Source of the DNA: Candidatus Hydrothermus pacificus
Lineage (GTDB): Bacteria > Hydrothermota > Hydrothermia > Hydrothermales > Hydrothermaceae
Length of the DNA: 64,000 bases
Assembly (NCBI GenBank): GCA_002011615.1
Contig: MTOH01000018.1
Span: 108,931 to 172,930, forward strand
Reading direction: 5' to 3'
Shown piece by piece: positions 34,303 through 61,114 of this stretch (positions within the stretch are counted from its first letter, which is position 1; every line of letters starts with the position of its first letter). The position numbers and the translations under genes are program-made. A model generated the notes under the pieces. That model saw only the letters and a program-made list of their open reading frames with translations. It was not told the DNA's origin and made no database searches.

Positions 34303-36398
34303 CCTTTAAAGCATCCAATAATATTTTTGCCCTGTTCCAGCTCAAGTAAATATTCCCCTGGCTTTAATTCGGGTAACCTTATTTCTCTTTCAAAACTTTC
34401 TCCCTTTAAAAGAAAAGGATGGTTTTCAGGGTTTATAGAAATATCCCGGGTGTAAATAAGTTTTCCTCTGTCCAGGTATCTAATGCGTATCTTATTCACA
34501 TAGAGTAATATACATGGGCTTTCCTCATCATACACGAAAATCAGTTTACCACTCTTTTTATCTTTCATTTTAAAATACACACTAAACTTATAATCTTTTA
34601 TATAAGTTCTTTCAGGGTCAAACTTTTCATTTCTCACAACAATCTCATAAACAACTGATATATCATCCTCAAACACCTTTACCAGTTCCTGGTTGTATTC
34701 ATTCTCAATTATAGAAACAATATTTTCAAGCATGTTCTTATGAAATACATGGAGATTCTCTTTATAAACATCTTTATGGATTATTAAATATTTTATATTT
34801 ATTGCTTTTGCAAGTTCAATCTGTCTTTTTAAATCAAGAGCCTTGGCACGATTATAAAGCGGTGCTATGTATCCACTGTATCCGTTAAACAATTTTTTGT
34901 TATGATAGGCTGAAAAATAGGTGTAAAAAAAGCCTTTATCCTGACCATAGGGAACATCCCACCACCTTGCTTCCTCTAAGGGCAGTTCCATTATTGCAAA
35001 TTTTTCTTTTTTCTCACCAAGCCATTTATAAACTTCTGGAATTCCACCTTTATAAGGCATCTCAGAAACACGCACATAATAGGGAACAAACTCTATAAGA
35101 ATTAATATTTCTAAGATAATCAGAGTCTTTTTTCTGAAATATAAAGAATAAAAATGGGAGAGTAAAACCGCAGAGGAAAATAAAAACATTATAAAAAACC
35201 TGGAGGGAACTCTCAATCCCTCAAAACCTGGAAAAAAGTAATAAAATAAATAGTAAACTGGATTTGGAAGATATTTTATTCTAAAAAATAAAGGACCTGC
35301 AAGCAATATAAAACTCAAGAGCAAAATCACAAGATATAATACGGAGAAATCCGGGGGTGTTATTTTTATCTTTTCTAAATGAGGTAAATATAAAGTTTTT
35401 GAATTAGAAACCTCTTTTTTAAGTTTAAACAATATAACATTTTTCTTTATGATAAAAAAGCAAATAAATATAATTGACAGAACAGGAATAATTCCCATAT
35501 AAAGGGTATTCTCCCATGCAAGCGGAGGATTTATAAACTTCGTCAAAATTTTGCCTGTAAGGGTAAAGGGATAGGCTGTTAAAAAAGCCCTTACATCAGG
35601 AGAATAGCGAATACACTCTCTTATGGACCTTTTAAATCCATAAAGTTCTTCTACTGTAAGATAATGATAATAAACAGGGATAAGAATTGCTCCTGAGACA
35701 ATTATGAAAATTAAAAAACCTGTTAAATATTTTTTAATAAAATACTTATCTCTCAGAATATAAAACAGGAAAATAACAGGAATAAAAGGTGAGATTATAA
35801 CCATATAATTTGCACAACCGAGTGAATGCATGATGAAAAACAATGACGAGAGCAAGGCAAATCGGTATTTTTTCTCCTCAAAAAATCTATGGAGAAATAA
35901 AAATATAAGAGGAAGCCACATGGTGGTCAAAATATGAAGATGACCTGAATGAGAAAATTTAAAAGGTGCAAAGGAAAATATTGTCCCTGCTATAAGGGAT
36001 GCAAAAAAGTTTTTTGTAAAGTGGTAGCAGAGCAAATACATAAAAAAACCTGAAAGCACAAAATTGGCAATAACAAATATGTTGTAGGAAACAACAATGT
36101 TTTTTAAAACGAGATAAACTGGCAATAAAGATATGGAAGAAGATATAAGGTTTTCAGAGAATGCAAGGGTCAATTTACAGGGATAGAATATGTTTGCATC
36201 AAAAAAATTCTTAAAATTGAAAGTTAAAATTCTATCTATGTTGTGTTTTAAAATATAAAGATTTAAAAGAGGGTCTCCTAAATCACCTATGATGTTTTTC
36301 CTCAATGATACTTTAAGAAGACCTTTAAATATATAAAGGGTTAAAAAAAGGAAAAAGTTAAAAGAAATAAAATCTTTAATTATTCTTTTATCTTTCAT
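34293..36398 (-). CDS. large membrane protein, GT-C/YfhO-like
   Basis: This 701-residue protein has about 12 membrane spans over residues 10-440, followed by a soluble C-terminal region of about 260 residues with beta-rich character. The sequence GDLGDPLLNLYILKHN and DANIFYPCKLTLAFSENL in the first periplasmic loop are found in GT-C-fold and YfhO-like sugar transferases, which use polyprenyl-phosphate sugars. The aspartates in this loop could be the catalytic pair. It shares a 4-nt overlap with the ILEI-like gene and forms the end of the 38802-34293 minus-strand run. The transferred sugar is unknown. Confidence 0.65.
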   Translation of the reverse strand: MKDKRIIKDFISFNFFLFLTLYIFKGLLKVSLRKNIIGDLGDPLLNLYILKHNIDRILTFNFKNFFDANIFYPCKLTLAFSENLISSSISLLPVYLVLKNIVVSYNIFVIANFVLSGFFMYLLCYHFTKNFFASLIAGTIFSFAPFKFSHSGHLHILTTMWLPLIFLFLHRFFEEKKYRFALLSSLFFIMHSLGCANYMVIISPFIPVIFLFYILRDKYFIKKYLTGFLIFIIVSGAILIPVYYHYLTVEELYGFKRSIRECIRYSPDVRAFLTAYPFTLTGKILTKFINPPLAWENTLYMGIIPVLSIIFICFFIIKKNVILFKLKKEVSNSKTLYLPHLEKIKITPPDFSVLYLVILLLSFILLAGPLFFRIKYLPNPVYYLFYYFFPGFEGLRVPSRFFIMFLFSSAVLLSHFYSLYFRKKTLIILEILILIEFVPYYVRVSEMPYKGGIPEVYKWLGEKKEKFAIMELPLEEARWWDVPYGQDKGFFYTYFSAYHNKKLFNGYSGYIAPLYNRAKALDLKRQIELAKAINIKYLIIHKDVYKENLHVFHKNMLENIVSIIENEYNQELVKVFEDDISVVYEIVVRNEKFDPERTYIKDYKFSVYFKMKDKKSGKLIFVYDEESPCILLYVNKIRIRYLDRGKLIYTRDISINPENHPFLLKGESFEREIRLPELKPGEYLLELEQGKNIIGCFKGYF

Positions 36399-37033
36399 GG
36401 CTTTATCTTTAAATCAACAAAAAGTATTTTTCTATCTGAAAAGACCTCTTTAACAGGGCTGAAGTTTTTACCCTCTTTTTTTGTAATCATTATATAACTA
36501 CATCCTTCTCTGGCTTTTTTATAATTTCCTGCACCTATTTTTTTAAAAACATGACCCAGATTGATATTCTCTTTATTAAAAATAAAACCTGAAAAACTCA
36601 GAACAATTAAAGAACTATCAGGAATTTCATTTTCTATGTAATGGATAAATTCCAGGTCATCTTCATTCAGGTTAAAACTTTTTACTCTAAAATATGCAGG
36701 ATTCTCATCTGGAATAGAAACAACATATAACCCATTTTCATAATTCTGAATCTTGCATTTTTCTGCTATAAAAATAAAATAGGAATAATAGGGGTCAATT
36801 GCTTTAGACCCAAAAGAGAAGATTTTAAAGTTATAGCCGTTTTCGTCAACAACAAATTTTTTTCTGATTATCTTGTTCTTTATTCTGCATTCTTTTAAAT
36901 AACTTTCCATAGCTTTTTTAAATCTATTTATTGAATTTAATGGATAGGGAGAAAATATAAAATGTATTATAAAAATTAAAAATCCCTGTAAAAATAAAAA
37001 GTTTCTCATAAAATTCATTTTACCCATAAACAA
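36395..37033 (-). CDS. membrane-anchored protein with ILEI/FAM3-like domain (copy 1)
   Basis: The 212-residue product has one hydrophobic N-terminal span (about 10-28) and a soluble domain. The order GLYVVSIPDENPAYFRVKSFNLNEDD...FIHYIENEIPDSSLIVLSFSG...FKKIGAG...GCSYIMITKK matches the ILEI/FAM3 fold: strand, 'FdT' loop, E.....I..LPdgsiVvi..kde, then '.l.slGs....yrdSyvfIg'. The conservation is weaker than in the second copy at 50007. It begins 19 nt inside the upstream GT-C gene (37015), and alternative ATGs lie a few codons on. In the animal enzyme POMGnT1 a related domain binds glycans, so a glycan-binding role beside glycosyltransferases is possible, by inference only. Confidence 0.6.
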   Translation of the reverse strand: MFMGKMNFMRNFLFLQGFLIFIIHFIFSPYPLNSINRFKKAMESYLKECRIKNKIIRKKFVVDENGYNFKIFSFGSKAIDPYYSYFIFIAEKCKIQNYENGLYVVSIPDENPAYFRVKSFNLNEDDLEFIHYIENEIPDSSLIVLSFSGFIFNKENINLGHVFKKIGAGNYKKAREGCSYIMITKKEGKNFSPVKEVFSDRKILFVDLKIKP

Positions 37034-38802
37034 AGGTTTTTATCTTTATAAACCTGTGTGTAATTTTCAATCAAAGTATTAGGTGAGGTTATAATCTTAG
37101 AGTAATTTTTTAAATTCTCTTCTTTCTGAATAGCATTTAAAGAAATTAAAAAGTTGTTCCTTAAAACCAGACCCATGAGATTTCGTGGATTTTCAGAAAG
37201 GGACCAATCTTTTGTCCAAACTCCAATTCTATCATTCTCTTTTAAATAAAAACTTAGTTTAGAATAACTTTCTTTTATCTCTTCAGGTATATAAAAAATT
37301 TCAAAGGTATTATCCTTATAAGAGTTTAAACCTGAATAAGGAGAGAGAATAATTCTGTCATGTATTCCCTGTATTAGAGAAAGGAAAGTAAGCATAATAA
37401 TCAACCCCTTCAAATTCTTTTGCTTTAATCTCTCCCAGATGTATATTGTTCCAATGAAAGCAATAAAAGGCAGGTAAACATGGAATCTTGCCCACCAGCG
37501 ATAAGGGACTGTCAGAAAAATCAGTAATGAGAAAAAAACAATCTTTAGAAAAGTCTTTTCTTTGTTTTTAATAGATAAAAACACGGCAATTATAAATGGA
37601 ATTATCCCAAAGGAAATAAAAAGATGACCAAAACCTCCTCCATGATTGTCTGAAACATAATATTTTATATAGTCATATCCAAATTCCAATAGACGGGGAA
37701 TAATAATAAACGGGTTGTATGTAAAAATGGGCATATTACCGATTGATGAAGGTATATCTATCCCTTTAAATATTTCTATTCCAAAAATCTTTACAATATA
37801 GGGATAAAGAGGGTTCCCTGTTAAAAAGAAATTGTAAATGTAGTAGTGAAAAGAAGTAACCAGACATAAAAAAAGAGAAAGTAAAATTAAACCATATTTT
37901 CTTCTCATTGATAATTTTATTACGCTAAATAAAATAAAAATCCCGAACATCGTCAAAAAGCTCCATTTTGTTCCTGCCCCTATGGACAATGAAATTATTA
38001 AAAATACAATGTTATAGGGAAATTTCAAAAATAAAAGGTTTAAAAAAATCAGGAAAACGCAGGCAACTTCAATATCTACAAAAGCAAATCCTGCAAGATT
38101 TGGAATAATGGGTATTGAAAGACAGGAAAAAATATAAAGAGACTTCTCATTAGGTATATTTAATTTCCTTAAGATAGAATAGGTTGAAAGGGCTCCAAAA
38201 ATCAAAAAGGGAATATGAATTATAAGAATGCCCTTATCTGTACCCATAAACATATAATAATAAGCAAACAAAACTTCTACATTATTAGAGAAATACATAT
38301 TTGGATTTAAATCCAGAAACTCGCGAGGAGGAAAACCTTTTTCAATAACCATTCTTGAAGCAAGGGGTAAATGATATGTATAACTATCCCATCCCTGAGG
38401 GGGATATAAAAATGTAAATCTTGTAATTATAAGAAATTCCAGAAAAATTAAAATAAATAAAATTAAAAGCAAGGGGTCCTTTTTTAGATAGAGAAAAAAC
38501 CTTTTAAATAAATTCCTGAGTTCATAATAAGAGCTTAAAAAACTTTCTTTTGCTTTACCTTTGAAAATACAAAAGAATAATGCTAAAGCTATAATGAGAA
38601 TTGTAACTGTTTTAGATTCATAAATATGAAAATATCCTGAAATCGCTGGAATTCCAAGAATAACTGTTAAATATATTAAAAAACTCAATATCAACCTGTC
38701 AACAGAACTGATTTTATCTTTCCAGAAATAAAAAAACCTGAATATCGAAAAGTAAAGTGCTGAGTTCAGGAGCAGAAAACCGAATAATTTTACGAGAAAC
38801 AT
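37015..38802 (-). CDS. GT-C-fold membrane glycosyltransferase-like protein
   Basis: This 595-residue protein has about 12-14 membrane spans and a short soluble C-terminus of about 110 residues. The loop PPQGWDSYTYHLPLASRMV near residues 132-150 is the hallmark 'D(S/A)xxYHLP' motif of GT-C enzymes related to ArnT and RgtA-D, with the aspartate as candidate catalytic base. Other sugar-binding residues are in MYFSNNVEVLF and TGNPLYPY. Its C-terminal 215 residues are similar to the separate gene at 49261. It probably transfers a sugar from a polyprenyl carrier on the periplasmic side. The start at 38802 lacks a Shine-Dalgarno and follows a TATAAT by 8 nt. Confidence 0.7.
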   Translation of the reverse strand: MFLVKLFGFLLLNSALYFSIFRFFYFWKDKISSVDRLILSFLIYLTVILGIPAISGYFHIYESKTVTILIIALALFFCIFKGKAKESFLSSYYELRNLFKRFFLYLKKDPLLLILFILIFLEFLIITRFTFLYPPQGWDSYTYHLPLASRMVIEKGFPPREFLDLNPNMYFSNNVEVLFAYYYMFMGTDKGILIIHIPFLIFGALSTYSILRKLNIPNEKSLYIFSCLSIPIIPNLAGFAFVDIEVACVFLIFLNLLFLKFPYNIVFLIISLSIGAGTKWSFLTMFGIFILFSVIKLSMRRKYGLILLSLFLCLVTSFHYYIYNFFLTGNPLYPYIVKIFGIEIFKGIDIPSSIGNMPIFTYNPFIIIPRLLEFGYDYIKYYVSDNHGGGFGHLFISFGIIPFIIAVFLSIKNKEKTFLKIVFFSLLIFLTVPYRWWARFHVYLPFIAFIGTIYIWERLKQKNLKGLIIMLTFLSLIQGIHDRIILSPYSGLNSYKDNTFEIFYIPEEIKESYSKLSFYLKENDRIGVWTKDWSLSENPRNLMGLVLRNNFLISLNAIQKEENLKNYSKIITSPNTLIENYTQVYKDKNLCLWVK

Positions 38803-38882
38803 AATATATTATTATAAAGAATTGAATTTAAAATAAGAAATTGACTTTTTCCATTGAAATGGATTATTTTTAATTTCTCTAA

Positions 38883-40418
38883 ATGAAAGAAAGCCAGAAC
38901 TTAGAAAAATACCTTGAAAAATACATAGAAAATCTTTTTCAGGGTTCTATCCTGAATTTTACAGGTGAGGTGGCAAAAAGACTTGGTGGATATATATACC
39001 AGGTTGCAATAGTGAGGCTTCTTGGAACATTCATATACGGAATATATACCCTTTCGTACACTCTTATAAATGTTGTTTTAAGAATCTCTCAGCTCGGGCT
39101 TGATAGAGGTGGCATAAGATACATTGCAATCTTAAAGGAAGAAAAAAAATTCGACCTGATAAAAAAACTTGTAATTTTCCTGCTTTTACTATCAATCAGT
39201 TCAGGTCTTTTATGGGGATTAATAACCTTTTTATCCTCTTCATTCCTGGCTAATATTTACAAAAAACCCGCGCTTAAAAATGGATTGATTTATTTCAGTA
39301 TTGTACTTCCCTTTTACACGTCTTTGCTTGTTATGGCCTACAGCTCAAGAGGATTTAACAAAATGCAATATTATGTTGTAACAGAAAACTTTATGCGTCC
39401 TTTTTTACAGTTCTTATTCCTGTTTATACTATTTTACTGGTTTGGAAAAACAATACCCACTGCAATCTTGCCATGGGCATTTTCGTCTTTTCTTGCACTG
39501 ATTACAATAGTTTTATTTTTTAAAAAAGAACTAAAGAATAAAAGAAATGGACCATCAAATGGTTTTGGATACAGAGAAGTTATTACCTTTTCCCTGCCGG
39601 TCACATTGATATCAATCCTGTATTTTATTTTTGCATGGACAGACCTGATAATACTCGGATTTTTTAGACCCGCAGAAAAAATCGGGATTTATAACGGAGT
39701 TGCAAGAACCGCGGAGATGACAAATTTGTTCTTGCTTTCAATAAATGAGGTTTTTTCACCCCTTGTTTCTCAGTTAAGTCATAAAAAGGATTTTAATTCA
39801 CTTAAAAGAATTTTCAGGGTGATAATAAGGTGGTCTCTTTACTTTTCCTTACCCCTTTATATATTTTTCATATTTTCAGGTAAATATTTTTTAGGTTCTG
39901 TATTTGGAAAAGAATTTATAACAGGCTATATTCCCATGGTGATACTGCTGTCAGGTCTTATATTTCAGAACATAACCGGTCCTGTGGCAATGACCCTTAC
40001 AATGAGTGGGTATCAAAAGGAGTGGGCATTTATAAATTTTATAGGTCTATTTATAAATATCTCCCTTGCTCTTTTATTTATACCAAAACTGGGAATACTT
40101 GGAGCCTCTGTTTCCACCTGCTTATCACTGGTTATCCTGAGAAGCATTGGAATAATAGGAGTTAAAAAATTCTTAAAATTTAAAACCCATGATATAAAAG
40201 TTATAAAACCCTTATTACAAGGCACAATAACCCTGTTAATTATAGGAGCCTTAAATTTATTCCTTTTGGTAAGGACTCCTTTAAATCCTTTAATAAAAAT
40301 TCTTGTAAATTTCTCTCTTTCTTATTTGATATACTTTTTGCTATTTATCTTTATAAAACCTGAAAATGAGGAAATATTTTTATTAAACAAACTAAAAGGT
40401 TTTCTCAAAAAAAATTAG
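38883..40418 (+). CDS. Wzx-type polysaccharide flippase (copy 1)
   Basis: This 511-residue MATE/MOP-superfamily protein has about 14 membrane spans. Indicators are the amphipathic N-terminus, the KRLGGYIYQVAIVRLLGTFIYGIYTL first helix with 'lG...yGiyt', repeated hydrophobic pairs, and the C-terminal LALLFIPKLGILGASVSTCLS ('P.yGi.Gaa.at..s') motif. Such flippases move lipid-linked repeat units across the inner membrane. There is no good Shine-Dalgarno. A TTGACT (38841) sits at promoter distance. The gene overlaps the convergent GT gene by 27 nt. Confidence 0.85.
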   Translation: MKESQNLEKYLEKYIENLFQGSILNFTGEVAKRLGGYIYQVAIVRLLGTFIYGIYTLSYTLINVVLRISQLGLDRGGIRYIAILKEEKKFDLIKKLVIFLLLLSISSGLLWGLITFLSSSFLANIYKKPALKNGLIYFSIVLPFYTSLLVMAYSSRGFNKMQYYVVTENFMRPFLQFLFLFILFYWFGKTIPTAILPWAFSSFLALITIVLFFKKELKNKRNGPSNGFGYREVITFSLPVTLISILYFIFAWTDLIILGFFRPAEKIGIYNGVARTAEMTNLFLLSINEVFSPLVSQLSHKKDFNSLKRIFRVIIRWSLYFSLPLYIFFIFSGKYFLGSVFGKEFITGYIPMVILLSGLIFQNITGPVAMTLTMSGYQKEWAFINFIGLFINISLALLFIPKLGILGASVSTCLSLVILRSIGIIGVKKFLKFKTHDIKVIKPLLQGTITLLIIGALNLFLLVRTPLNPLIKILVNFSLSYLIYFLLFIFIKPENEEIFLLNKLKGFLKKN

Positions 40419-41375
40419 TCTTTCTTTTAAATCTTTTATTTCCTTTTCCCACATCCTGATATAAGATTTTTTAAATTCTCTCATTTTTTTCAAATACCAT
40501 TCATAATTTTTCAAGAGTTTCTCAATCCCCTTTCTTATTGAGTCTGGTTCATTATCAACATAAATTGCATTTTCTTTAAAGAACTCTCTTAGTGTTTTTT
40601 TATTACTCACTATCAAGGGTTTTTCAAAACTCACTGCCTCAAAACCAGCAAACAAAAGGGTATAATCCCAGTTTGTAAGAGCTATTATCCCCTTGGAACT
40701 TTTTAAAAGAGAATAAAATTGCTCCTGGGGCAAAAAACCTGTGAATTTAACATTTTCTGGAATATTCAAAAAAACTTTTTTTAAAGCCCCTGTAATAAAA
40801 AAATCTATATCAGGATAAAAAACTGCACCTTTAATAACTTCTTTTATGGGCTCATCAGTATCGCCTGAACATGGAAAAACAAAATAATCTTTTTTATTTT
40901 GAAATTTCTGTATATCTTTAATATTTAATGGCGGGTCGTGAACAACAATTACCTTTTTTCCCCCCTTGCAGGGCAATTTCTCATATATGGTTTTTTCATG
41001 AATTATTATCAAATTGGACTTTTTCAAAATAAAATATGTAAGGGTTTTTAAAAATGCCCATTTCCTGGAAACTAAAGGACCTGAGTGAAGGTCTATAATA
41101 AGAGGTTTTTTAAAAATAATTTTATATAAAAGAGAGGTTAAACCTATGATGGGTTGAACCATCTCAACAATAATTATATCAGGTTTTATCTTCATTAAAT
41201 AAAAAAGGGTAACAATTATTTGGACAGGAAATTTTAAAGGAGCAAGAAAAATTTTTCTTGTAAATAAAGGAAACCTGAAAATCTCAAATCCAATACATTT
41301 TGCCAGAAACTTTGTTCTTGAAGACCCTTTTGATTCAGGAATCCATGAAACAAATAATTTTTTAATTTTGTTCAT
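40392..41375 (-). CDS. GT4-like glycosyltransferase
   Basis: This 327-residue protein has a GT-B pattern: KKLFVSWIPESKGSSRT at the start, KPLIIDLHSGPLVSRKW, KVIVVHDPPLN, FTGFLPQEQFYSLLKSSKGIIALTNWDYTLLFAGFEAVSFEKPLIVS and a C-terminal amphipathic helix. The donor-binding glutamate would be in GFEAVSF. It is shorter than average GT4 enzymes (360-400). The 3' end overlaps the flippase by 27 nt, tail to tail. Start and end are well placed, but substrate cannot be read from sequence. Confidence 0.75.
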   Translation of the reverse strand: MNKIKKLFVSWIPESKGSSRTKFLAKCIGFEIFRFPLFTRKIFLAPLKFPVQIIVTLFYLMKIKPDIIIVEMVQPIIGLTSLLYKIIFKKPLIIDLHSGPLVSRKWAFLKTLTYFILKKSNLIIIHEKTIYEKLPCKGGKKVIVVHDPPLNIKDIQKFQNKKDYFVFPCSGDTDEPIKEVIKGAVFYPDIDFFITGALKKVFLNIPENVKFTGFLPQEQFYSLLKSSKGIIALTNWDYTLLFAGFEAVSFEKPLIVSNKKTLREFFKENAIYVDNEPDSIRKGIEKLLKNYEWYLKKMREFKKSYIRMWEKEIKDLKERLIFFEKTF

Positions 41376-41416
41376 ATTGAATTATAATTATAGTATAAAA
41401 AAGCAGGGTTTTGAAA

Positions 41417-42538
41417 ATGAGAATAGGAATAAGCGGTTTATCACTTCATGGATACTCAAAAAGAGGAGGATTCTGGGAATACTTTAAAACCCTTTTAAAA
41501 ATAATAGAGAAAGTGGTTCAAAGAGAAAAAATATTTATATTTGTTCAAAAGGAGCTGGAAAAAGATTTTAAGGAAATAAATAAGAAGAATTTCCATTTCA
41601 TAGAGGTAAAAATTCCTGAAAAAGGTTCTCATTATACAGAATTCATTTTTTTACCTTATTATTTAAAAAAATATAAAATAGAACTATTACATTTTCCCAC
41701 ATTTGCAGTTCCCTTATTTTTAAAAACTCCCTATATTGTTACCGTCCATGACCTTGCATTTTTAAAATTTGAAAAAAATTTGAAAAGGAGGGATGTCTTT
41801 TACTGGAAATATGTTTTTAAATTGTCGGTGAAAAGAGCAAAAATGATTATAAGTGATTCTCATAATACAAAAGAGGATTTAAATCATTACTGGAAAATCC
41901 CCTTACAAAGGATAAAGGTAATACCTCCATTTTCTTCTTTACTTTTTTCAAAATCTCCCTTGATAAAAGACGAAATAGTTCGGAAATATGGAATAAAAAA
42001 ACCCTATTATCTTTTTATAGGAACCTTAGAACCGAGAAAAAATTTAAAAAGGGTGATAGATGCCTTTTTAAAACTTTCCCGGGAAATTGAAGAAGTTGTT
42101 CTTTTAATAATAGGGCAGAAGGGATGGGAGGGGTCAGAACTGTTCAGAAAGATTGAAGAGAATAAACAAAGAATAATCTGGCTTAATAATATTACTTCAG
42201 AGGAACTTCCTTCATTTTATAAAAATGCCATAGCACTTTTATACCCCTCACTTTATGAAGGCTTTGGATTACCCATTTTAGAAGCATATAAGTTTAAAGT
42301 ACCGGTAATAACTTCCAATGTTTCTTCCTTGCCCGAGGTTGCGGGAAAAGGAGCAATTTTTGTAAATCCCGAAGATGAGGGGGAAATTAAAAGAGCCATG
42401 TTAGAGATTTATCATAACAAAGATTTGAGAAATCGTTTATTGAAAGCACAGGAAAGGGAAATAAAAAAATATGACTATAAAAAAATAGGGGAAGAAATTC
42501 TTTCAATCTATGAGGAAGTTTTTTTAAACTCTCTATAA
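41417..42538 (+). CDS. GT4-family glycosyltransferase (mannosyltransferase-like)
   Basis: This 373-residue protein runs from ATG 41417 (MRIGISGLSLHGYSKRGGFWEY); an in-frame TTG lies two codons earlier. The donor half has YLFIGTLEPRKNLKRVIDAF, LLIIGQKGWEG, ALLYPSLYEGFGLPILEAYKFKVPVITSNVSSLPEVAG and the E-x7-E signature (EGFGLPILE). These are the standard marks of WbaZ/mannosyltransferase-type GT4 proteins, as is the HFPTFAVPLFLKTPYIVTVHDLAF acceptor side. It is similar in design to the gene at 50633. The end overlaps the convergent O-antigen ligase by 31 nt. Confidence 0.9.
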   Translation: MRIGISGLSLHGYSKRGGFWEYFKTLLKIIEKVVQREKIFIFVQKELEKDFKEINKKNFHFIEVKIPEKGSHYTEFIFLPYYLKKYKIELLHFPTFAVPLFLKTPYIVTVHDLAFLKFEKNLKRRDVFYWKYVFKLSVKRAKMIISDSHNTKEDLNHYWKIPLQRIKVIPPFSSLLFSKSPLIKDEIVRKYGIKKPYYLFIGTLEPRKNLKRVIDAFLKLSREIEEVVLLIIGQKGWEGSELFRKIEENKQRIIWLNNITSEELPSFYKNAIALLYPSLYEGFGLPILEAYKFKVPVITSNVSSLPEVAGKGAIFVNPEDEGEIKRAMLEIYHNKDLRNRLLKAQEREIKKYDYKKIGEEILSIYEEVFLNSL

Positions 42539-43956
42539 ATAAATGCGGAAAGGGTTATCAAGATAAAAAGGACTTTCATCTCTTCGTTGTGATTAATGGT
42601 TGTCCAGGAACTATCAAGGAAATTGTGGCTTAAAAAGGTAACCCAGGAACCAACAAGTCCCATTACCATCCAGGAATAACCCTTATCTTCTTTAATCTTC
42701 ACACAGGCAAACAGAGATTTCAAAACATACCCTATAAACATGAAAAAGGTAATAAACCCTAAAATCCCTGTTTCGAGTAAAAGCTGAATATACAGGTTAT
42801 GGGGAATTAAAACCAGAAATGCATAGGGCATATATATAAACTGGCTTATCCCTACACCAAGAACAGGGTTTTCAAAAAATGTTTTTAATGAATTTTTCCA
42901 GTAATGGAGTCTTACCTGAAAACTTAAATCTTTATAGGGGCTGAATATTGATACCACTCTCTCATACACATTTTCAAATAAAAATTTTGATATAATAACT
43001 GCAATCAGAATAAAGATAAAAACAACAAACCCGTATCTCAGAAAAATTCTCAACCTCTTTATCTTCCAGGAATACACAAAAATTACGGCTAAAACTCCCA
43101 AAAATGCAGAGATAAGACTGTTTCTTGAATAGGTAAAGAAAAGGGCGCCGAGTAAAAATATAAAAAATGAGAAATACAAAAACTTTACCAAAATCCTTCT
43201 TTTTTTTAAATAGTCGCTGAAATAAAAGGATGCATATACCGGTATTGTGAGCGCGATTATTCCTCCGAGTGAATTTCCATGCACAAATACTCCTCTTATT
43301 CTCCTCATCTCCATAGTATAAATCTCCATAAATCCCTTCCCGAATAAAGGAATATAACCGATAACCAGCTGGAAGACACCTATGATTATATTAAAACTCA
43401 AAAACACCAAATATGCCCATAAAAACATCCTTAAATTGGATTCCCTTTTTTCCAGATTATCAAGCAAAAACCTGTAAATAATATAACCATTAAAGAACAT
43501 CAAAATATGGAATAGGGAAAAGAATTTGTCAAAGGAAGGTATAAGGGATAAAAATAGTGAGCCAAAAAATAAACCAAAAAATCTGAAATAAGGGTCCTTT
43601 GTACAACTCTTAGAGGAGATGTATTGTATCAGAATATAAAATAAGAGGGCAAAGGCAATAAAATCGGTTATATGGAGAAAAAGGGGGGTAGAAGGAGGAG
43701 TTCTCTTTATCAAAAATTTATGGATAAACACATATCTTATGCCTGTACAGAGAAATATAGGGAAAAAAATTGCAAGATATTCAAAGGGTCTTCTCGTAAG
43801 CAATAAAAAGGGAATAATTACCAGACTCAGCAAAATTTTGAAAAAACTCTTTAAATGGAATGCCCCTTGAATATAATATAGTAAAATAATAAATAAAAAT
43901 ACAAAAAAAAGTAAAACCTGAAAAATTATATAATCCCTTTTCAATTCCAGATTCAA
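42508..43956 (-). CDS. O-antigen ligase/polymerase family protein (copy 1)
   Basis: This 482-residue protein has about 12 membrane spans and the large periplasmic Wzy_C-type loop. Marks are IRGVFVHGNSLGGIIALTIP, FFTYSRNSLISAFLG, HYWKNSLKTFFENPVLGVGISQF and PHNLYIQLLLETGILG (the 'HN.yl.ll.e.GilG' motif). It polymerises or attaches undecaprenyl-linked glycan on the outer face of the inner membrane. Waal and Wzy cannot be told apart by eye. It overlaps the phosphoglycosyltransferase gene by 4 nt, an operon with initiation and ligation enzymes together. Confidence 0.87.
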   Translation of the reverse strand: MNLELKRDYIIFQVLLFFVFLFIILLYYIQGAFHLKSFFKILLSLVIIPFLLLTRRPFEYLAIFFPIFLCTGIRYVFIHKFLIKRTPPSTPLFLHITDFIAFALLFYILIQYISSKSCTKDPYFRFFGLFFGSLFLSLIPSFDKFFSLFHILMFFNGYIIYRFLLDNLEKRESNLRMFLWAYLVFLSFNIIIGVFQLVIGYIPLFGKGFMEIYTMEMRRIRGVFVHGNSLGGIIALTIPVYASFYFSDYLKKRRILVKFLYFSFFIFLLGALFFTYSRNSLISAFLGVLAVIFVYSWKIKRLRIFLRYGFVVFIFILIAVIISKFLFENVYERVVSIFSPYKDLSFQVRLHYWKNSLKTFFENPVLGVGISQFIYMPYAFLVLIPHNLYIQLLLETGILGFITFFMFIGYVLKSLFACVKIKEDKGYSWMVMGLVGSWVTFLSHNFLDSSWTTINHNEEMKVLFILITLSAFIYREFKKTSS

Positions 43957-45305
43957 TATGCGTGCTTCTGGGAAAAAAATGTAAGGGCTGTTTTTAATAT
44001 AATCTTTATATCAAACCAGAGTGACCAGTTATTTATATAATAAAGGTCATACCTTACCCTTTCATCTATGGGTGTATCCCCTCTGAGTCCGTTTACCTGT
44101 GCCCAGCCTGTAATGCCAGATTTAAACCTGTGTCTTTCATAATATCTGGGTATTTCCTTTGAGAATTTTTCAACAAAATATGGTCTTTCTGGCCTTGGAC
44201 CAACAATACTCATATCTCCCTTTAAAACATTGAAAAACTGAGGAAACTCATCAATGGAAAACTTTCTTAAAAATCTTCCTATTTTTGTAACTCTCGGGTC
44301 ATCAGGTGTTGTAAATTTTGGTCTTTTTTCCTTATCAGCACCAACTATCATTGTTCTGAACTTAATAAGTTTAAATATTTTTCCATCCTGTCCCACTCTT
44401 TCCTGAAGATAAAATACAGGTCCTCTATCCTGAAGCTTAATAATCAATGCTATTATTCCAATAAAGGGTAAAATAAAAATAATCACAATGAGAGAAAACA
44501 CAATATCAAAGGCTCTCTTTAAAAAAGACTGAAAAAGAGTCAGGCTTGGCTCTTTAATTGCAACAAGAGGCATACCTGCAATCTGATAAACACCCGCACC
44601 TGATGTCATAAGCTGATATATATCAGGCACTATTCTAACAGGTATTTCAAAATTTTCACACTTTTTCACAATATCTTTTAATAAATGTTGTTTTTCAAGG
44701 GGGAGTGCAACTAAAATAAAATCAGCAGAAATACCATTCAACTCTTTTTCTAAAAATTTCTCTGCATTTAAAACGCCTTCAATAGCATATCCCAGGAACT
44801 TATCATTTTCTATCCTTTCCTTTATCCATTCTCCTATCTCTCCTTCTCCAACAAGTAAAATTCTTTGAACGCCTTTTCCTCTTTTAACAAGTTCCCTTTT
44901 TATAACCCTTATTGTTCCCCTGAAAATCAGCATTAAAAAGAATGTAAACATAAAGAAAAAACCAACCACAAGACGGGAATATAAAATCTTCCTATAAAAG
45001 AATGAAATAGCGGTTGTGATAATCGCAAGCACGATAAGGGCTTTTAAAATCTCAAAAATCTCATCAAGAAAAGAAAGCCCCCTTTCCTCTATTTTCCACA
45101 GATTCATAAAATAGAATACAAACAGGGCTATAAAAAATATAATTAAAAAGGCATAGAAGTATTTTTCAAACTCAGGAATAGGGAAGTGAAAAACAGGGAT
45201 TACATTTCCATAAAACCTGAACCAGTAGGCGAAAATAAATCCCAGAACAAGAGAAACAATATCTGTTATGATTCCTGAAATTTTAAATATCAATACTCTT
45301 TTCAT
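43953..45305 (-). CDS. undecaprenyl-phosphate sugar phosphotransferase (WbaP/WcaJ-type)
   Basis: This 450-residue polyisoprenyl-phosphate hexose-1-phosphate transferase starts surface glycan assembly by loading the first sugar phosphate onto undecaprenyl-P. About five N-terminal spans (8-130) are followed by a CoA-binding-like domain (140-250) and a PGT catalytic domain from about residue 262. Key motifs are KRAFDIVFSLIVIIFILP, KFRTM, KFSIDEFPQFFNVLKGDMSIVGPRPERP with the catalytic Asp-Glu pair, and the C-terminal RHRFKSGITGWAQVNGLRG. It is the only initiating enzyme of the locus. The start lies 200 nt from the divergent flippase gene. Confidence 0.95.
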   Translation of the reverse strand: MKRVLIFKISGIITDIVSLVLGFIFAYWFRFYGNVIPVFHFPIPEFEKYFYAFLIIFFIALFVFYFMNLWKIEERGLSFLDEIFEILKALIVLAIITTAISFFYRKILYSRLVVGFFFMFTFFLMLIFRGTIRVIKRELVKRGKGVQRILLVGEGEIGEWIKERIENDKFLGYAIEGVLNAEKFLEKELNGISADFILVALPLEKQHLLKDIVKKCENFEIPVRIVPDIYQLMTSGAGVYQIAGMPLVAIKEPSLTLFQSFLKRAFDIVFSLIVIIFILPFIGIIALIIKLQDRGPVFYLQERVGQDGKIFKLIKFRTMIVGADKEKRPKFTTPDDPRVTKIGRFLRKFSIDEFPQFFNVLKGDMSIVGPRPERPYFVEKFSKEIPRYYERHRFKSGITGWAQVNGLRGDTPIDERVRYDLYYINNWSLWFDIKIILKTALTFFSQKHAY

Positions 45306-45503
45306 TTAAGTGTCAGATATTTAGTTTTTAAATATAATGAATTAAAAGACTAAAATCAATTATAAAGAATATTTAAATAATTTTAAAATTTCTCATATTT
45401 ACGAGTTTTGCATGGAAATTTTTAAAGAATTGAATGAAAACACTATAATTATAATCAAATAATGAACATTACTTTTGCTTAACTATGAAAAAAAACCTTT
45501 TCC
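45306..45503. other. divergent intergenic region between the two halves of the polysaccharide locus
   Basis: About 200 nt of very AT-rich sequence lie between the divergent phosphoglycosyltransferase and flippase genes. TATAATTATAAT-like runs near 45445-45462 could serve rightward transcription, but no clear -35 box is at the right distance. No gene, hairpin or repeat is seen. The gene order on either side is roughly mirrored. Confidence 0.35.
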
Positions 45504-46754
45504 ATGAATAAATTTATCAGACTAAAAGATATCTTAAAAGATATAGGTATAGTCACAACGAGTAGAGGACTTTCATTTCTATTTGCTTTTGTAATCAGTA
45601 TTTTAATCTCAAGATTAACCGGTCCGGAAGGAAGAGGTGTTTATTCCCTGGTATCAGTGAGTATACTTTTTTTAAGTCTCGTTCTATCATGCGGTATGGA
45701 AGAAGCATTCCCTTATTATATTTCAAGGAAGGATATAAAACCTTCCCATCTACTACCTTTAGGATTGCCGTATCTACATACAGTAGTGCTTTCTATTTTA
45801 CTAATCCTATTTTTCATACCTCTGAGCTGGAAAAGAAGTGTTTTGCCTTCTCTATCAGCCCTGGCTTTTAATCTAATATTACTGGGGACCTTATTCCGAA
45901 TACAGGGGAGAATAATTGGAAATTCTTTTCTGGGAGTCAGAAATTTCTGGCTTTTTGGTTATCATCTCTTTTCTTATCCTCTATATGGTCTTTTAATAAT
46001 ACCTGTTCTCCATTTTTCCCGTCTTTTATCTGTGGAAAGTGTAATGTGGGTCCCTTTTTTATCTTCTGTGCTCCAGGGCATCACTTTTACCATTATCATT
46101 ATATTTATGTTTCCTCCTGATTTTCACGAAGCATTCACTTCATTCAGCTCAGTTGTGAAAAAATATAAAAAAATTCTCGGTTATGGGCTTTTTGCACAAA
46201 CAGGAGTAATACTTAATTTCTTTAACTTGAGATTAGATTTTTATTTTATAAATTACTTCAAGGGGGTTAAAGAACTGGGATTATACAGCATTGCGACTGC
46301 TGTAGGGGAGTCTTTATATTTGATTCCTTATGCTATAGGTAGAATGTGGTTTCCGCGGGTAGCAAAAAATCAGGCAGGTAAAAAAGAAAAAACCTTTCAG
46401 ATCTTACTGGTAACTTTTATAATCTCCTCACTGACAGGAATAATTTTAATTGCCACAGGAAAACTGCTGCTGACATTTATGTTTGGAGAAAAATTTGAAG
46501 GTTCTTATATTCCTTTAATTATTCTAATTCCTGGAATAATAAGCCTGGGTTTATCTTCTGTCATTGCAAGTTATTTCCATGGGATAGGAAAACCTCAGTG
46601 GGGTACATTGATGAGTGTTATTTCTATATCTTTCACTATAATACTTGACTTTCTATTAATTCCGGTGTATGGAATAAAAGGTGCAGCAATTGCATCTTCA
46701 ATAGCCTATACAATATCATTTTTAACAGGTTTTTTTACGATTTTTAGGGTTTGA
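45504..46754 (+). CDS. Wzx-type polysaccharide flippase (copy 2)
   Basis: This 416-residue MOP-superfamily protein has about 12 spans. RGLSFLFAFVISILISRLTGPEGRGVYSLVS is the typical first-helix pattern and LLIPVYGIKGAAIASSIAYTISF the typical last one. It is about 100 residues shorter than the flippase at 38883 and not closely similar. There is no Shine-Dalgarno. It is followed after 7 nt by a glycosyltransferase gene, so 45504-50603 looks like one transcription unit. Confidence 0.83.
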   Translation: MNKFIRLKDILKDIGIVTTSRGLSFLFAFVISILISRLTGPEGRGVYSLVSVSILFLSLVLSCGMEEAFPYYISRKDIKPSHLLPLGLPYLHTVVLSILLILFFIPLSWKRSVLPSLSALAFNLILLGTLFRIQGRIIGNSFLGVRNFWLFGYHLFSYPLYGLLIIPVLHFSRLLSVESVMWVPFLSSVLQGITFTIIIIFMFPPDFHEAFTSFSSVVKKYKKILGYGLFAQTGVILNFFNLRLDFYFINYFKGVKELGLYSIATAVGESLYLIPYAIGRMWFPRVAKNQAGKKEKTFQILLVTFIISSLTGIILIATGKLLLTFMFGEKFEGSYIPLIILIPGIISLGLSSVIASYFHGIGKPQWGTLMSVISISFTIILDFLLIPVYGIKGAAIASSIAYTISFLTGFFTIFRV

Positions 46755-46761
46755 GAATGGA

Positions 46762-47790
46762 ATGAAAGCACCTAAAATTTGCCTGATTTGCAGTCTACAT
46801 CATCCAGGTATCAAAACTCATTTTTGGCATCTTTCAAAAAACATAAATGCGTCTTTATTCTTTGTAGAGAACCTATACCACCCCATTTTTTTAAAACTTG
46901 CTAAATTTTTAAAAATTCCTCTACCCTCAATATTAAGTCTAAAAGAATATGATATAATAATATTAGGGGGATGGCGTGCCTCGTATCTAAGCATTATAAA
47001 AAATTTAAAAAAGGAAAACAAAAAAGTAGGCATCTATTGGACAAGCTCGATAGGACAATCAGAGATGACTGAAAAACATGTGGAAATATATCACCTTAAC
47101 CATATATTGAATCTTTTAAAAGAGGATGTTATAGATTTTATCATGGTTCCTGAAAGAACATATGAAGCAATGGGAAAATTGAAAAAAGTTTTCCTTCTAC
47201 CTTACACATTTAACTTTTCTCAGATTAAATTTTCTGAAAGAAAAAATATTGTTAAAAGAACTGATATTTTTCTGTCTGTCAGGCATGGTAAGAATATACT
47301 AACCCAATTTATAGGAGTGCATCTGGCAGATCCTGATATAGAAATTTATACTAATATAAAGAATAAAGAATTTTTAAATTTTTTACAATTACTTGAAATA
47401 CCTTTTAGATACATAGAATGGATACCAAATTACGAGGAATATCTGAAGTTCATTTCCAAAATGGGGTTTTCTCTCCAGATTACATATACTGAAACCTTTA
47501 ATTATGCTGTAGCAGAAAGGATGGCAATGGGAATACCTGTTTTTGCATCAGGGAATATATTTTTAATAACACAGGATGAATTTTTGAAAAAATATTTATA
47601 CGTAGAAGCACCAGATTCTCCTTTAGAAATATCTAAAAAAATACGATTTTTACTTAAAAATTCTACCCTATACCATGAAATAAATATTCATATAAGAAAA
47701 TTCCTTGAAAAATTTTTAAAATCTAAGGAAGAAAAGTTTCAAGAATGTTTCTCTAAATTTTTGAAATTTATTCAAAACAGTTTGTTATGA
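46762..47790 (+). CDS. glycosyltransferase-like protein (GT-B type)
   Basis: This 342-residue protein has no perfect signature but a GT-B look. The N-terminal half has ICLICSLHHPGIKTHFWHLS and DIIILGGWRASYLSI. The C-terminal half has FRYIEWIPNYEEYLKFISKMGFSLQITYTETFNYAVAERMAMGIPVFASG, where 'ETF..a.aE.mamGiPV' is the donor-binding loop of GT4-like enzymes. It overlaps the ligase gene by 4 nt. I cannot assign sugar or acceptor. Confidence 0.65.
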   Translation: MKAPKICLICSLHHPGIKTHFWHLSKNINASLFFVENLYHPIFLKLAKFLKIPLPSILSLKEYDIIILGGWRASYLSIIKNLKKENKKVGIYWTSSIGQSEMTEKHVEIYHLNHILNLLKEDVIDFIMVPERTYEAMGKLKKVFLLPYTFNFSQIKFSERKNIVKRTDIFLSVRHGKNILTQFIGVHLADPDIEIYTNIKNKEFLNFLQLLEIPFRYIEWIPNYEEYLKFISKMGFSLQITYTETFNYAVAERMAMGIPVFASGNIFLITQDEFLKKYLYVEAPDSPLEISKKIRFLLKNSTLYHEINIHIRKFLEKFLKSKEEKFQECFSKFLKFIQNSLL

Positions 47791-49181
47791 AAAATGGAAG
47801 TAAATGGAAAATAATTGTAAGTGAGAGTTTTTTTTTGATAATTGCAATTCTGATATTCTTTGTTTTTATAAATCTTTCAGTTAAATGGACGATAAGGTAT
47901 CTAATTTTAATTCTCTATATCTTAATGGGGTTTTTAACTTCTCGTTTTTTAAAAACATGGGTGTTATTTTCACCCATTCTAATTACATTGAACATCAGAT
48001 GGTTTATAAATTTTGAAACTTTTTCTTTCCCTTTTTCCGCAATAGATATATTGGGTTTTATCTATATTATATTCTTATTTTATAGATTCAAAAATTTTAA
48101 AAAAATGGATGAATTTAACATCCCCTTATTCATTTTACTGATAAGTATCTTACTTTCTTCTATAAACTCATTCAAACCTCATTTTACTCTTTTTACCACA
48201 GCTTTTTTTATGTTAGGTTATTCTTATTACAAGTTGCTTGTTGATGAGATAGAAAACCAAAAGGAACTGAAAATATTTATCTACTTGCTTTTCTTCTGCT
48301 TTCTTATGAATTCAGTAGTGGCAATTTTTCAATATCGTGGTGGGTTCTTCCTCTTTGGAGAAGAAGTATCTCCGACTTATGAAAAAGGAACTTTGTTCCC
48401 GGGTGGAAGAGTTAAGGGTTTATTTATTCATGCAAACTCTTTTGCTGGAATATTGGCTATTTTTAGTCCTTTTATGCTCTCTTTTTCTCTTTCTAATAAA
48501 ATAAGCAAAAAATACAGGTTTTATTCCCTATTTACATTTATTATAGTATCTATTTCTATATTTTTCAGTTTTTCAAGAAATGGCTACCTTACATATTTAA
48601 TTTCATGCATAACTTTACTACTGTTATTTGTTTACAAACAAAAACGTAAAACATTTTTTTACATTATAGGTGTATTATTGGTTATAGTGATAATAAATTT
48701 TTCCATATTCATGCTATTTCCTAATATATATGAACGAATTCTATCAATATTTTCCTATGAATACGACCCTGCAACAAGAATCAGATTTTTCATGTGGAAA
48801 AAATCTCTTGCCAAATTCGCACAGTCCTTTCTTACAGGAATAGGATGGGGTAATTTTGTATTTGAGTCATATTCCTTTGGGCTTTTAATACCTCATAATT
48901 TGTATATTAACATTCTGCTGGAATTAGGTCTATTAGGAGCAATAGCATTCATTTATTTCATATATATATTGTTTAAAAAGTTGTTTCAACTGTTTTATTT
49001 GTCAAATTCAAAAAATCTATATCTGACCCTTCCTATTATATCTGCATGGATAGGTTTTTTTATAAATAATATTGCTGACTCAATTTTCACTTCTCCTACC
49101 CACACAATTGAAAATAAGTTTTTCTGGATATTATTAGCACTAACAAGTTTATCATATCGCTTTTCGTTACAAAGAGAATAG
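47787..49181 (+). CDS. O-antigen ligase/polymerase family protein (copy 2)
   Basis: This 464-residue membrane protein with about 12 spans has the same motif set as the 42508 gene: RVKGLFIHANSFAGILAIF, FFSFSRNGYLTYLI, RFFMWKKSLAKFAQSFLTGIGWGNF and IPHNLYINILLELGLLGA. It overlaps the glycosyltransferase by 4 nt. Two such ligases in one locus suggest either two glycans or a duplication. After its stop a degenerate remnant of a GT-C gene follows. Confidence 0.86.
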   Translation: MKNGSKWKIIVSESFFLIIAILIFFVFINLSVKWTIRYLILILYILMGFLTSRFLKTWVLFSPILITLNIRWFINFETFSFPFSAIDILGFIYIIFLFYRFKNFKKMDEFNIPLFILLISILLSSINSFKPHFTLFTTAFFMLGYSYYKLLVDEIENQKELKIFIYLLFFCFLMNSVVAIFQYRGGFFLFGEEVSPTYEKGTLFPGGRVKGLFIHANSFAGILAIFSPFMLSFSLSNKISKKYRFYSLFTFIIVSISIFFSFSRNGYLTYLISCITLLLLFVYKQKRKTFFYIIGVLLVIVIINFSIFMLFPNIYERILSIFSYEYDPATRIRFFMWKKSLAKFAQSFLTGIGWGNFVFESYSFGLLIPHNLYINILLELGLLGAIAFIYFIYILFKKLFQLFYLSNSKNLYLTLPIISAWIGFFINNIADSIFTSPTHTIENKFFWILLALTSLSYRFSLQRE

Positions 49182-49260
49182 TAACTCCAACTATACATCT
49201 TAAAATTATTTCTCCATACAAAAATTTCAGATTTGAACTTATAAAATACAGATAGGTAAA

Positions 49261-50022
49261 TTGAAAATACTAAAAGGCAAATACTCTGTAGAAGTAGAAA
49301 AGAGAAGTATTCTGGGCTCTCTCTTTGAAATTCCATCTACACAAGAAAAAACTTATGGGTATTATAATTATGCTACCAGGGTAGGAGGATTTGGACCTCT
49401 TTTCACCGTTCTTTTTCTACCTTCTTTATTTTTTGCTTTTTTAATCGGCCTTTTAAAAAGGGACAAGAATGTTTTACTTCTATTCATGATATACTTCTTT
49501 ATATATATGGTATTACCTTATAAATGGTGGACAAGATTTCATATTTACATTATGGGAATTTCCATAACTTCATTTTCTTATATTCTATTTCATTTATCTT
49601 CCTCATTTTATATATTAGGAATTATCTTCAGTACACTCTCATTCATTTCTGCTCATAGAAATATTCCCAAATTTCATATCCAGAATTATTTCCCTTATAA
49701 ATGGAGGAAATTATACTTTTCAGAACGAAGTTATTTATTAAAAGATGCAAAGAATATAATTTTTCCTTATTTAGAAAAAGGTGACACTATTGGTTTATAT
49801 TATTCTCCTGAGGCTTCTGAAAAATACAATTTCCTTCTGAAGCTCTCATATATTTTCATACCACATGACTACGAAATAAACATAAAATATATTTTCCCAC
49901 CGTTAAAAAACATGCCTCCCAGCGCCAAATTTATAATAACACCTTCCTTTTTTAAATCTTTTAATGAAAATTATACTTTAGTATATCACAACAGGGATTT
50001 TGAGATATGGAGAAGAAAATAA
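49261..50022 (+). CDS. C-terminal fragment of GT-C membrane protein (5'-truncated paralogue of the 37015 gene)
   Basis: This 253-residue frame starts at a TTG with no ribosome site. It begins in the middle of the homologous protein. GGFGPLF...YKWWTRFHIYIMGI matches GGFGHLF...YRWWARFHVYLPFI of the 595-residue protein, and the endings NENYTLVYHNRDFEIW and IENYTQVYKDKNLCLW also match. The N-terminal half with the YHLP catalytic loop is missing. Bases 49186-49257 in another frame read PTIHLKI..., possibly a decayed piece of the NPLYPYIVKI segment. It is most likely a decayed gene whose tail stays open. The next gene, an ILEI-domain gene, starts 16 nt before its stop, as in the intact copy. Confidence 0.6.
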   Translation: MKILKGKYSVEVEKRSILGSLFEIPSTQEKTYGYYNYATRVGGFGPLFTVLFLPSLFFAFLIGLLKRDKNVLLLFMIYFFIYMVLPYKWWTRFHIYIMGISITSFSYILFHLSSSFYILGIIFSTLSFISAHRNIPKFHIQNYFPYKWRKLYFSERSYLLKDAKNIIFPYLEKGDTIGLYYSPEASEKYNFLLKLSYIFIPHDYEINIKYIFPPLKNMPPSAKFIITPSFFKSFNENYTLVYHNRDFEIWRRK

Positions 50023-50603
50023 TCTTTTTAAAGTATATGTATATAACCATAATTTCTTTTATACTTCCCCTCTATCTCACTTATTCAATGTTTATTGAAA
50101 ATCTAAAAGACTCATTAAATGTTTTTTCTACTTTTTCTCCTATTTCAAAGATTGAAAGGATAGAAATAGTTTATAACAAAAAGGGAGAATGGTGGTATTT
50201 ATTAAGCGGAGGGTTTAATACAGGAAATTATGGATATGTATCCTCTAAAAACCTTTTTGTAAAAGGGAAAAGAGGATTTAATATTATTTTATTTAGCAAT
50301 AAAGGAATAGAAATTAAAACTTTTGACACTCATAAATTTCAAGAAGAGAGTCAAAAGATGGTTGAATTTATTCAAAAATTACCTGATTCTTGCGTTGGCA
50401 TTATATACGTAAAAGATGAAGCAAGCAACAATTTAACCCCTTCTCTTCAAAATGTTCTGAATTCCTTAGGCGCAGATATTTCCTTAAAGAATAAATATAG
50501 ATGGAGTTATGTATTTATATTTGAAAAAAGAAAAAAATATTTCCATAAAATATTTGAAGCCACTTCACCTGATAAAGCATTCTTAATAAAATTAAAAGTT
50601 TAG
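50007..50603 (+). CDS. membrane-anchored protein with ILEI/FAM3-like domain (copy 2)
   Basis: This 198-residue protein has one N-terminal membrane span (about 11-28) and a domain of about 130 residues. Its signature is unmistakably ILEI/FAM3-like: GFNIILFSNKGIEIKTFDTHKF, EESQKMVEFIQKLPDS...GIIYVKDEASNNLTPSLQNVLNSLGAD and YRWSYVFIFEK. Animal FAM3/ILEI cytokines and the glycan-binding stem domain of POMGnT1 share this fold; bacterial members are uncharacterised as far as I know. It overlaps the preceding GT-C fragment by 16 nt and ends the 45504-50603 unit. The role is unknown, with glycan binding the simplest idea. Confidence 0.72.
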   Translation: MEKKIIFLKYMYITIISFILPLYLTYSMFIENLKDSLNVFSTFSPISKIERIEIVYNKKGEWWYLLSGGFNTGNYGYVSSKNLFVKGKRGFNIILFSNKGIEIKTFDTHKFQEESQKMVEFIQKLPDSCVGIIYVKDEASNNLTPSLQNVLNSLGADISLKNKYRWSYVFIFEKRKKYFHKIFEATSPDKAFLIKLKV

Positions 50604-58997: not shown

Positions 58998-59015
58998 ATG
59001 AGGGATAAAAAATGA
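58998..59015 (+). other. five-codon leader frame overlapping the lipoprotein start
   Basis: ATG 58998, ideally spaced from AGGAGGG, opens MRDKK and ends at TGA 59013-59015, overlapping the ATG at 59012 (ATGA). The frame shift occurs in a run of six A. With seven A the leader would join the next frame as MRDKKMIIVGIIIVTGC, a classic lipoprotein signal with a basic N-terminus. It may be a translational-coupling leader, a slippage site, a mutation or a sequencing error. Confidence 0.5.
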
Positions 59016-60601: not shown

Positions 60602-61114
60602 ATGATTGTACTTTTTCTTTTTTCTTTAAGCATAAATTATTTTTATGGATGGAAATGGTATGATTATGCACAGGAACTTTCCTACTCTTCCTACATTAAA
60701 CACGAAATAGAAATAAAATTTGCGGGGATTTCTTCTGAATTGAAATGGGAGTACATGAATGTGAAGGATGGACTCGGAGATACACCTCCTTTTGTATGGG
60801 GAGGGCATGAGCATATATTTACCACAGGGGTGTGTAGGTCTTTTGAATTTAGAGGAATTCAATTTGAACCGGGTTTAAATTTTGGAAGTTTTACTTTGAG
60901 TTTTAACAGTTATCTCCCACTTGTAGATACTGACTATTTTATTTCTCTTATTCTTTCCCCCTCCCTTCAGATTAGGAAAGAAATTCCTAAAACCAATTTA
61001 ATAGCGGGACTTACTTTTTCCTTTTATCTCCCGATTGCTTTGTTTAAAAAAGACCTTTATCAAAACCATCTTTTTACATTATATTTTGACCTCGGTTTTA
61101 AGGTAAAGAAATAA
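60602..61114 (+). CDS. predicted outer-membrane beta-barrel protein
   Basis: This 170-residue product starts with a hydrophobic leader (MIVLFLFSLSINYFYG). Alternating-residue strands follow (IEIKFAGISSELKWEYMN, FRGIQFEPGLNFGSFTLSFNSYL, YFISLILSPSLQI, NLIAGLTFSFYLPI, LFTLYFDLGFKVKK). Small 8-stranded barrels have this size and a strand-ending aromatic pattern, though the final residues are KK rather than the usual aromatic. It lies 12 nt after the lipoprotein gene and is probably co-expressed. No family assigned. Confidence 0.55.
   Translation: MIVLFLFSLSINYFYGWKWYDYAQELSYSSYIKHEIEIKFAGISSELKWEYMNVKDGLGDTPPFVWGGHEHIFTTGVCRSFEFRGIQFEPGLNFGSFTLSFNSYLPLVDTDYFISLILSPSLQIRKEIPKTNLIAGLTFSFYLPIALFKKDLYQNHLFTLYFDLGFKVKK

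Follow-up and report, generated by a model that had tools for sequence, protein, structure and literature searches.

Two gene pairs within a glycan locus of Candidatus Hydrothermus pacificus, a little-studied bacterium from a deep branch, raise the question of whether a glycosyltransferase of the GT-C type can work together with a separate glycan-binding protein. In large GT-Cs (AftD and possibly S. aureus YfhO), the enzyme itself has extracellular domains that bind sugar; for smaller GT-Cs, a review predicts that a second, separate protein may be needed to bind the acceptor (PMC8035078). In the stretch of 64,000 nucleotides analysed here (the window), an earlier note had described a conserved "two-gene module present twice", in which a GT-C-like membrane protein is followed by a protein with an ILEI/FAM3-like domain. 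We asked how much of this description stands and what the pairing might mean.

Both pairs are located in a glycan locus (33061-55474) that includes several GT4-type glycosyltransferases. The locus also contains two Wzx-like flippases (38883-40418 and 45504-46754), two Wzy/ligase-like proteins (42508-43956 and 47787-49181), a phosphoglycosyl transferase (43953-45305) and a sulfatase-family protein (51736-53040). That the flippases and the Wzy/ligase-like proteins both come in twos suggests that the locus either serves two polysaccharide pathways or is a composite. Three proteins of 525, 170 and 342 aa in the window (59012-60589, 60602-61114 and 46762-47790) had no Pfam match at E<=0.001.

Pair A is encoded on the minus strand and begins with a GT-C-like polytopic membrane protein of 595 aa (GT-C A; 38802-37015), whose open reading frame is intact. 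It is followed by ILEI-A (37033-36395), a protein of 212 aa with an N-terminal transmembrane (TM) anchor and a diverged ILEI/FAM3-like domain (aa 101-186). Counted from the TTG at 37033, the two genes overlap by 19 nt; the next in-frame ATG (37027) would give an overlap of 13 nt. The third gene of the run encodes a second GT-C/YfhO-like membrane protein of 701 aa (36398-34293, minus strand) and overlaps ILEI-A by 4 nt. By blastp, this 701-aa protein is a homologue of the membrane part of ILEI-fused proteins found elsewhere (E=2.5e-21 for G233, 1.5e-10 for G400 and 1.4e-9 for G572). In the relatives of the order, no 701-like gene adjoins the pair.

Pair B is encoded on the plus strand. Here, an open frame of 253 aa (49261-50022) corresponds to the C-terminal part of a GT-C protein and overlaps by 16 nt with ILEI-B (50007-50603), a protein of 198 aa with an N-terminal TM anchor (aa ~4-22) and an ILEI/FAM3-like domain at aa 89-174. 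The genes and their order in both pairs, as well as the ILEI starts 16-19 nt inside the GT-C ends, are thus as the earlier note had described them. GT-C A and GT-C B are homologous across the C-terminal part (blastp, 26% identity, E=2e-13), and so are ILEI-A and ILEI-B (blastp, E=2e-5). The GT-C homology extends 5' of the open frame, across an in-frame TGA, to about position 49204, so that the remnant spans 49204-50022 and family residues ~324-591. Because the homology stops there, immediately after the end of the Wzy-like gene at 49181, about 320 N-terminal residues of GT-C B are gone, and with them the putative active-site loop. This rules out pair B as a second working copy. An assembly join is an unlikely source of the truncation, since the open frame is preceded by homologous sequence that has decayed and contains a stop codon.

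GT-C A has 11 TM segments by hydropathy, and its 'PPQGWDSYTYHLP' loop holds W138-D139 within the conserved sequence PPQGWDSYxYHLP. Homologues in other phyla measure about 620-730 aa and share the motifs WD..YHLP (or D..YH), D(I/L), G.K and NP.YP or similar; the W138-D139 region is conserved, with the aspartate present in every aligned homologue. This loop is likely the extracytoplasmic catalytic loop. In its predicted topology, GT-C A thus combines the many TM helices and the acidic residue in the first large external loop that characterise the GT-C superfamily, and fragment B lacks the external acidic loop. One homologue (G161) scored 25.4 bits against PMT_2, just under the cut-off of 26.1. 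GT-C A itself had no match in Pfam, NCBIfam or the PDB, and its predicted structure (pLDDT 42) was too poor for fold comparison. Profile alignment by hhalign with the fused GT-C families described below gave support neither way, the profiles being very shallow. Given the motifs and the near-PMT_2 homologue on the one hand, and the missing profile match and unusable model on the other, the label "GT-C-like" appears sound but indirect.

The ILEI assignment is more direct for ILEI-B, which matched the Pfam ILEI family (PF15711) with 59.2 bits (E=5.7e-16; cut-off 27). ILEI-A was borderline, with 26.6 bits in hmmscan (E=8.9e-6) and 27.5 bits in a profile search of the whole genome (2.06 Mb, 19 contigs), in which the two proteins were the sole ILEI matches. 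Searched against the PDB as a single sequence, ILEI-B found FAM3B and TMEM2 (4e-4) and POMGnT1 (7e-3); for ILEI-A as a single query, no ILEI protein was among the matches. A profile built from five ILEI sequences retrieved FAM3B (1.2e-9), FAM3A (3.9e-9), FAM3C and POMGnT1 (4.8e-4). The FAM3A/B/C matches were the best (E=1.2e-9 to 6e-4) and reached over the N-terminal strand region. We also predicted the structure of ILEI-B with AlphaFold2 (pLDDT 70) and compared it with the PDB using Foldseek. All 21 matches below 1e-3 were the POMGnT1 stem, FAM3A/B/C or TMEM2, and the next-best match had an E-value of 0.09. At the level of the predicted model and the profile, this confirms the beta-beta-alpha ILEI fold for ILEI-B and, with it, the proposed likeness to FAM3 and the POMGnT1 stem. 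Fold and profile evidence together exclude a chance similarity, and the ILEI domains of both copies are real.

FAM3 proteins are secreted animal signalling proteins with disulphides. ILEI-B, by contrast, has a single cysteine and an N-terminal TM segment, and is hence not a secreted, disulphide-bonded globular protein of the FAM3 cytokine-like kind. Basic residues ahead of the anchor would, by the positive-inside rule, place the ILEI domain outside. A tblastn search of plasmids and phages with ILEI-B and a scan of viral contigs returned no match.

In POMGnT1, residues R129, D179 and R207 contact beta-GlcNAc, and FAM3C, FAM3A and Fam3L2 likewise bind sugars (PMC9802357). We mapped this triad through the RG, DE and (Y/W)R positions of the HMMER alignment, which correspond to positions 43, 93 and 121 of the 5ggj chain at a constant offset of 86. 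R89, D137 and R165 of ILEI-B are the equivalents of the POMGnT1 residues, and the full triad is also present in G001, G003 and G004, the three relatives in the order with an open ILEI gene. ILEI-A has lost all three (N100, G149 and G177 instead). In the fused ILEI domains of other phyla, the first two triad positions are often conserved and the third is variable.

The loss in ILEI-A is accompanied by comparatively fast change. Unique changes in each protein of pair A were counted against those in G003, with G004 as the outgroup, and gave ratios of 38:23 for ILEI-A and 38:66 for GT-C A (Fisher p=0.002); ILEI-A has therefore changed faster than its partner GT-C predicts. The ratio dN/dS between G001 and G003 was 0.36 for ILEI and 0.29-0.82 for segments of the GT-C, which does not set ILEI apart at so small a divergence. 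Read from their sequences, the two copies show opposite patterns of decay: A retains an intact GT-C beside an ILEI devoid of the triad, and B an intact triad beside a GT-C devoid of its putative active-site loop. What remains of a module present twice is therefore two real adjacencies of ILEI and GT-C, each with one damaged member. The opposite decay also leads to the attractive idea that GT-C A may use ILEI-B in trans.

An adjacent GT-C/ILEI pair was found in five of five genomes analysed from the WOR-3 order, amounting to six pairs in total. The GT-C is damaged in four of them (G001, G002, G004 and pair B), and in three of these four the ILEI gene is open. G001 shows several breaks in the GT-C and G004 a single frameshift, both next to an open ILEI; in G002, GT-C and ILEI have both decayed, with an assembly N run between them. 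Both genes are intact in G003, and the fully open GT-C A is 61% identical to the GT-C of this genome. The gene surroundings differ between G001/G003, G004 and the window loci, yet the overlap and the gene order of the pair are conserved. Elsewhere in the phylum, one more genome out of 147 has ILEI, inside a 1660-aa protein. No two-gene form was found outside the WOR-3 order among the genomes surveyed, and the loci of GT-C A homologues in other phyla gave no ILEI match.

Beyond the phylum, ILEI is joined to GT-C-like proteins in a different manner. A broad survey covered 390 genomes, and ILEI was present in 15 that lie outside the phylum. Seven of the proteins carry the domain after at least six TM segments, and two more resemble broken versions. 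The fused domain sits C-terminal to 5-15 TM segments in YfhO-, PMT_2- or unclassified GT-C-like proteins, and the Pfam families YfhO and PMT_2 recur in several fusions from several phyla. When only this sample's proteins with 500 aa or more from outside the phylum were compared, 7 of the 14 ILEI proteins had six or more TM segments, as did 9 of the 50 flanking proteins (Fisher p=0.03), a modest enrichment. Two further surveys were centred on genomes already known for the fusion. The first gave ILEI in 10 of 400 genomes and the second in 9 of 14; nearly all of these were fusions in long membrane proteins (one, in G391, is cut by the contig end). A PMT_2 GT-C protein (L054:308-2779) has two tandem C-terminal ILEI domains, and in proteins of the G289 phylum, too, a pair of ILEI copies follows the membrane part.

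GT-C-like proteins are, however, not the only hosts. In the G191 phylum, 54 of 82 genomes had ILEI, generally with two copies in a protein of ~1900 aa, and the hosts at the loci listed have essentially no TM segments. Where scanned, hosts of the non-GT-C type were C25 peptidases (gingipain family) with CARDB and FlgD-type domains, or a CotH/LTD protein. Such surface proteins refute ILEI as a GT-C-only domain and, being devoid of multiple TM segments, point to a general extracellular module; in bacteria, ILEI has at least two main settings, one of which is GT-C. The pairing thus recurs, both across the order and as GT-C-ILEI fusions in several phyla, and like the ILEI fold of copy B it passes the check that the earlier note had set for it. 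Among the genomes surveyed, the two-gene form was seen in this order alone, and ILEI is not exclusive to GT-C proteins.

Some further observations concern these other hosts. One C25 peptidase gene (L050:5653-11352, from the G191 phylum, as are loci L150-L178) lies among genes for glycosyltransferase-like and polytopic membrane proteins, and owing to these neighbours, ILEI may bind a surface glycan in the G191 phylum too. Two genomes of one family encode related single-span ILEI proteins of ~475 aa (L061:5364-6788 and L058:6141-7568), one of them with a weak TPR match. The window itself encodes two adjoining large Peptidase_C25 (gingipain/PorU-like) proteins (11721-15470 and 15656-19492). A weak Por_Secre_tail match in one of them hints at type IX-like secretion in the lineage. 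Unlike the C25 proteins of the other phylum, neither contains ILEI.

On balance, we lean towards ILEI being an extracytoplasmic glycan-binding accessory subunit of a GT-C glycosyltransferase. The single N-terminal helix would anchor ILEI in the membrane and the domain would face outwards, where GT-C enzymes act. There, it could hold the glycan that the surrounding Wzx/Wzy locus produces (a capsule or O-antigen-like polymer, still growing or already complete) and present it to the GT-C, which would take a sugar from a polyprenyl-phosphate donor and add it. One polypeptide would combine both functions in other phyla. The ILEI-B fold and triad, the pairing in differing surroundings, the fusions and the locus with its phosphoglycosyl transferase, Wzx, Wzy and glycosyltransferase genes all argue for this role. 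Against it count the triad-less ILEI-A that is still paired with an intact GT-C A, the broken GT-Cs beside open ILEI genes, the non-GT-C hosts and the loci of GT-C A homologues that have no ILEI. A fuller version, which we put forward tentatively and hold to be possible rather than probable, is a two-component GT-C made of a catalytic membrane subunit and a separate membrane-anchored, acceptor-binding ILEI, with the oppositely damaged copies cooperating in trans, so that GT-C A would now draw on ILEI-B.

Open ILEI genes beside broken GT-Cs (G001, G004 and pair B), together with ILEI in proteins without GT-C, would also fit an ILEI protein that acts on its own, binding glycan or retaining completed polysaccharide at the surface, and that neighbours the GT-C only through a shared set of surface-glycan genes. 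We regard this as unlikely, as overlap and order are conserved in different surroundings and ILEI is fused to GT-C-like membrane domains in several phyla. ILEI might instead serve another membrane enzyme, namely the 701-aa YfhO-like GT-C in cluster A and the Wzy/ligase-like neighbour in cluster B. The homology of the 701-aa protein to the membrane part of ILEI fusions (E=2.5e-21 for G233) and its 4-nt overlap with ILEI-A favour such an association, but ILEI-A has lost the sugar-contacting triad, and in the relatives ILEI follows the GT-C A homologue with no 701-like neighbour, which makes it improbable. The least probable reading is that of a module in decay, with most of its copies in this lineage no longer functional. 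Damage to the GT-C in four of six pairs and the faster change of ILEI-A relative to GT-C A (38:23 against 38:66, p=0.002) are consistent with decay, whereas the fully open GT-C A with 61% identity to its G003 counterpart, the intact G003 pair and the open ILEI-B with its complete triad speak against it.

Known systems offer partial parallels to the accessory-subunit role. The stem of human POMGnT1 (O-mannose beta-1,2-GlcNAc transferase 1) has the fold of ILEI-B (Foldseek E=1.1e-6) and the same three sugar-contacting residues, and there too a sugar-binding domain serves a glycosyltransferase. POMGnT1, however, spans the membrane once, resides in the Golgi and carries ILEI in its own chain, whereas here ILEI has its own gene, next to that of a polytopic GT-C-like enzyme. 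In the three-component YfhO/GtlB systems, an extracytoplasmic GT-C transfers a sugar from polyprenyl-phosphate to an envelope polymer (PMC8035078). Several ILEI fusions are YfhO proteins, but GT-C A has no YfhO or PMT_2 match, and no adjoining GT-A/GtrA pair was identified. The arabinosyltransferases AftD and EmbC (PMC8035078; for EmbC, through PMC11127046) are GT-Cs with a carbohydrate-binding domain outside the membrane; this domain is fused in one chain, and the likeness noted here is one of arrangement. The Tal CBM_1 of phage TP-778L (PMC9437275) differs in being part of a phage adhesion device, not of a biosynthetic enzyme.

The fold is a known sugar-binding fold and the enzyme is of a known type, but in the papers searched we found no description of the split, overlapping two-gene form or of any bacterial GT-C-ILEI pairing. 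The pairing links the sugar-binding fold of animal FAM3 and POMGnT1 to bacterial envelope glycan enzymes and bears on how extracytoplasmic GT-C enzymes recognise the polymer that they decorate. The split pair, together with the fused versions, makes the predicted acceptor-binding partner testable with one small soluble domain. If true, the two-component GT-C would represent the kind of second, acceptor-recognising protein that has so far only been predicted (PMC8035078).
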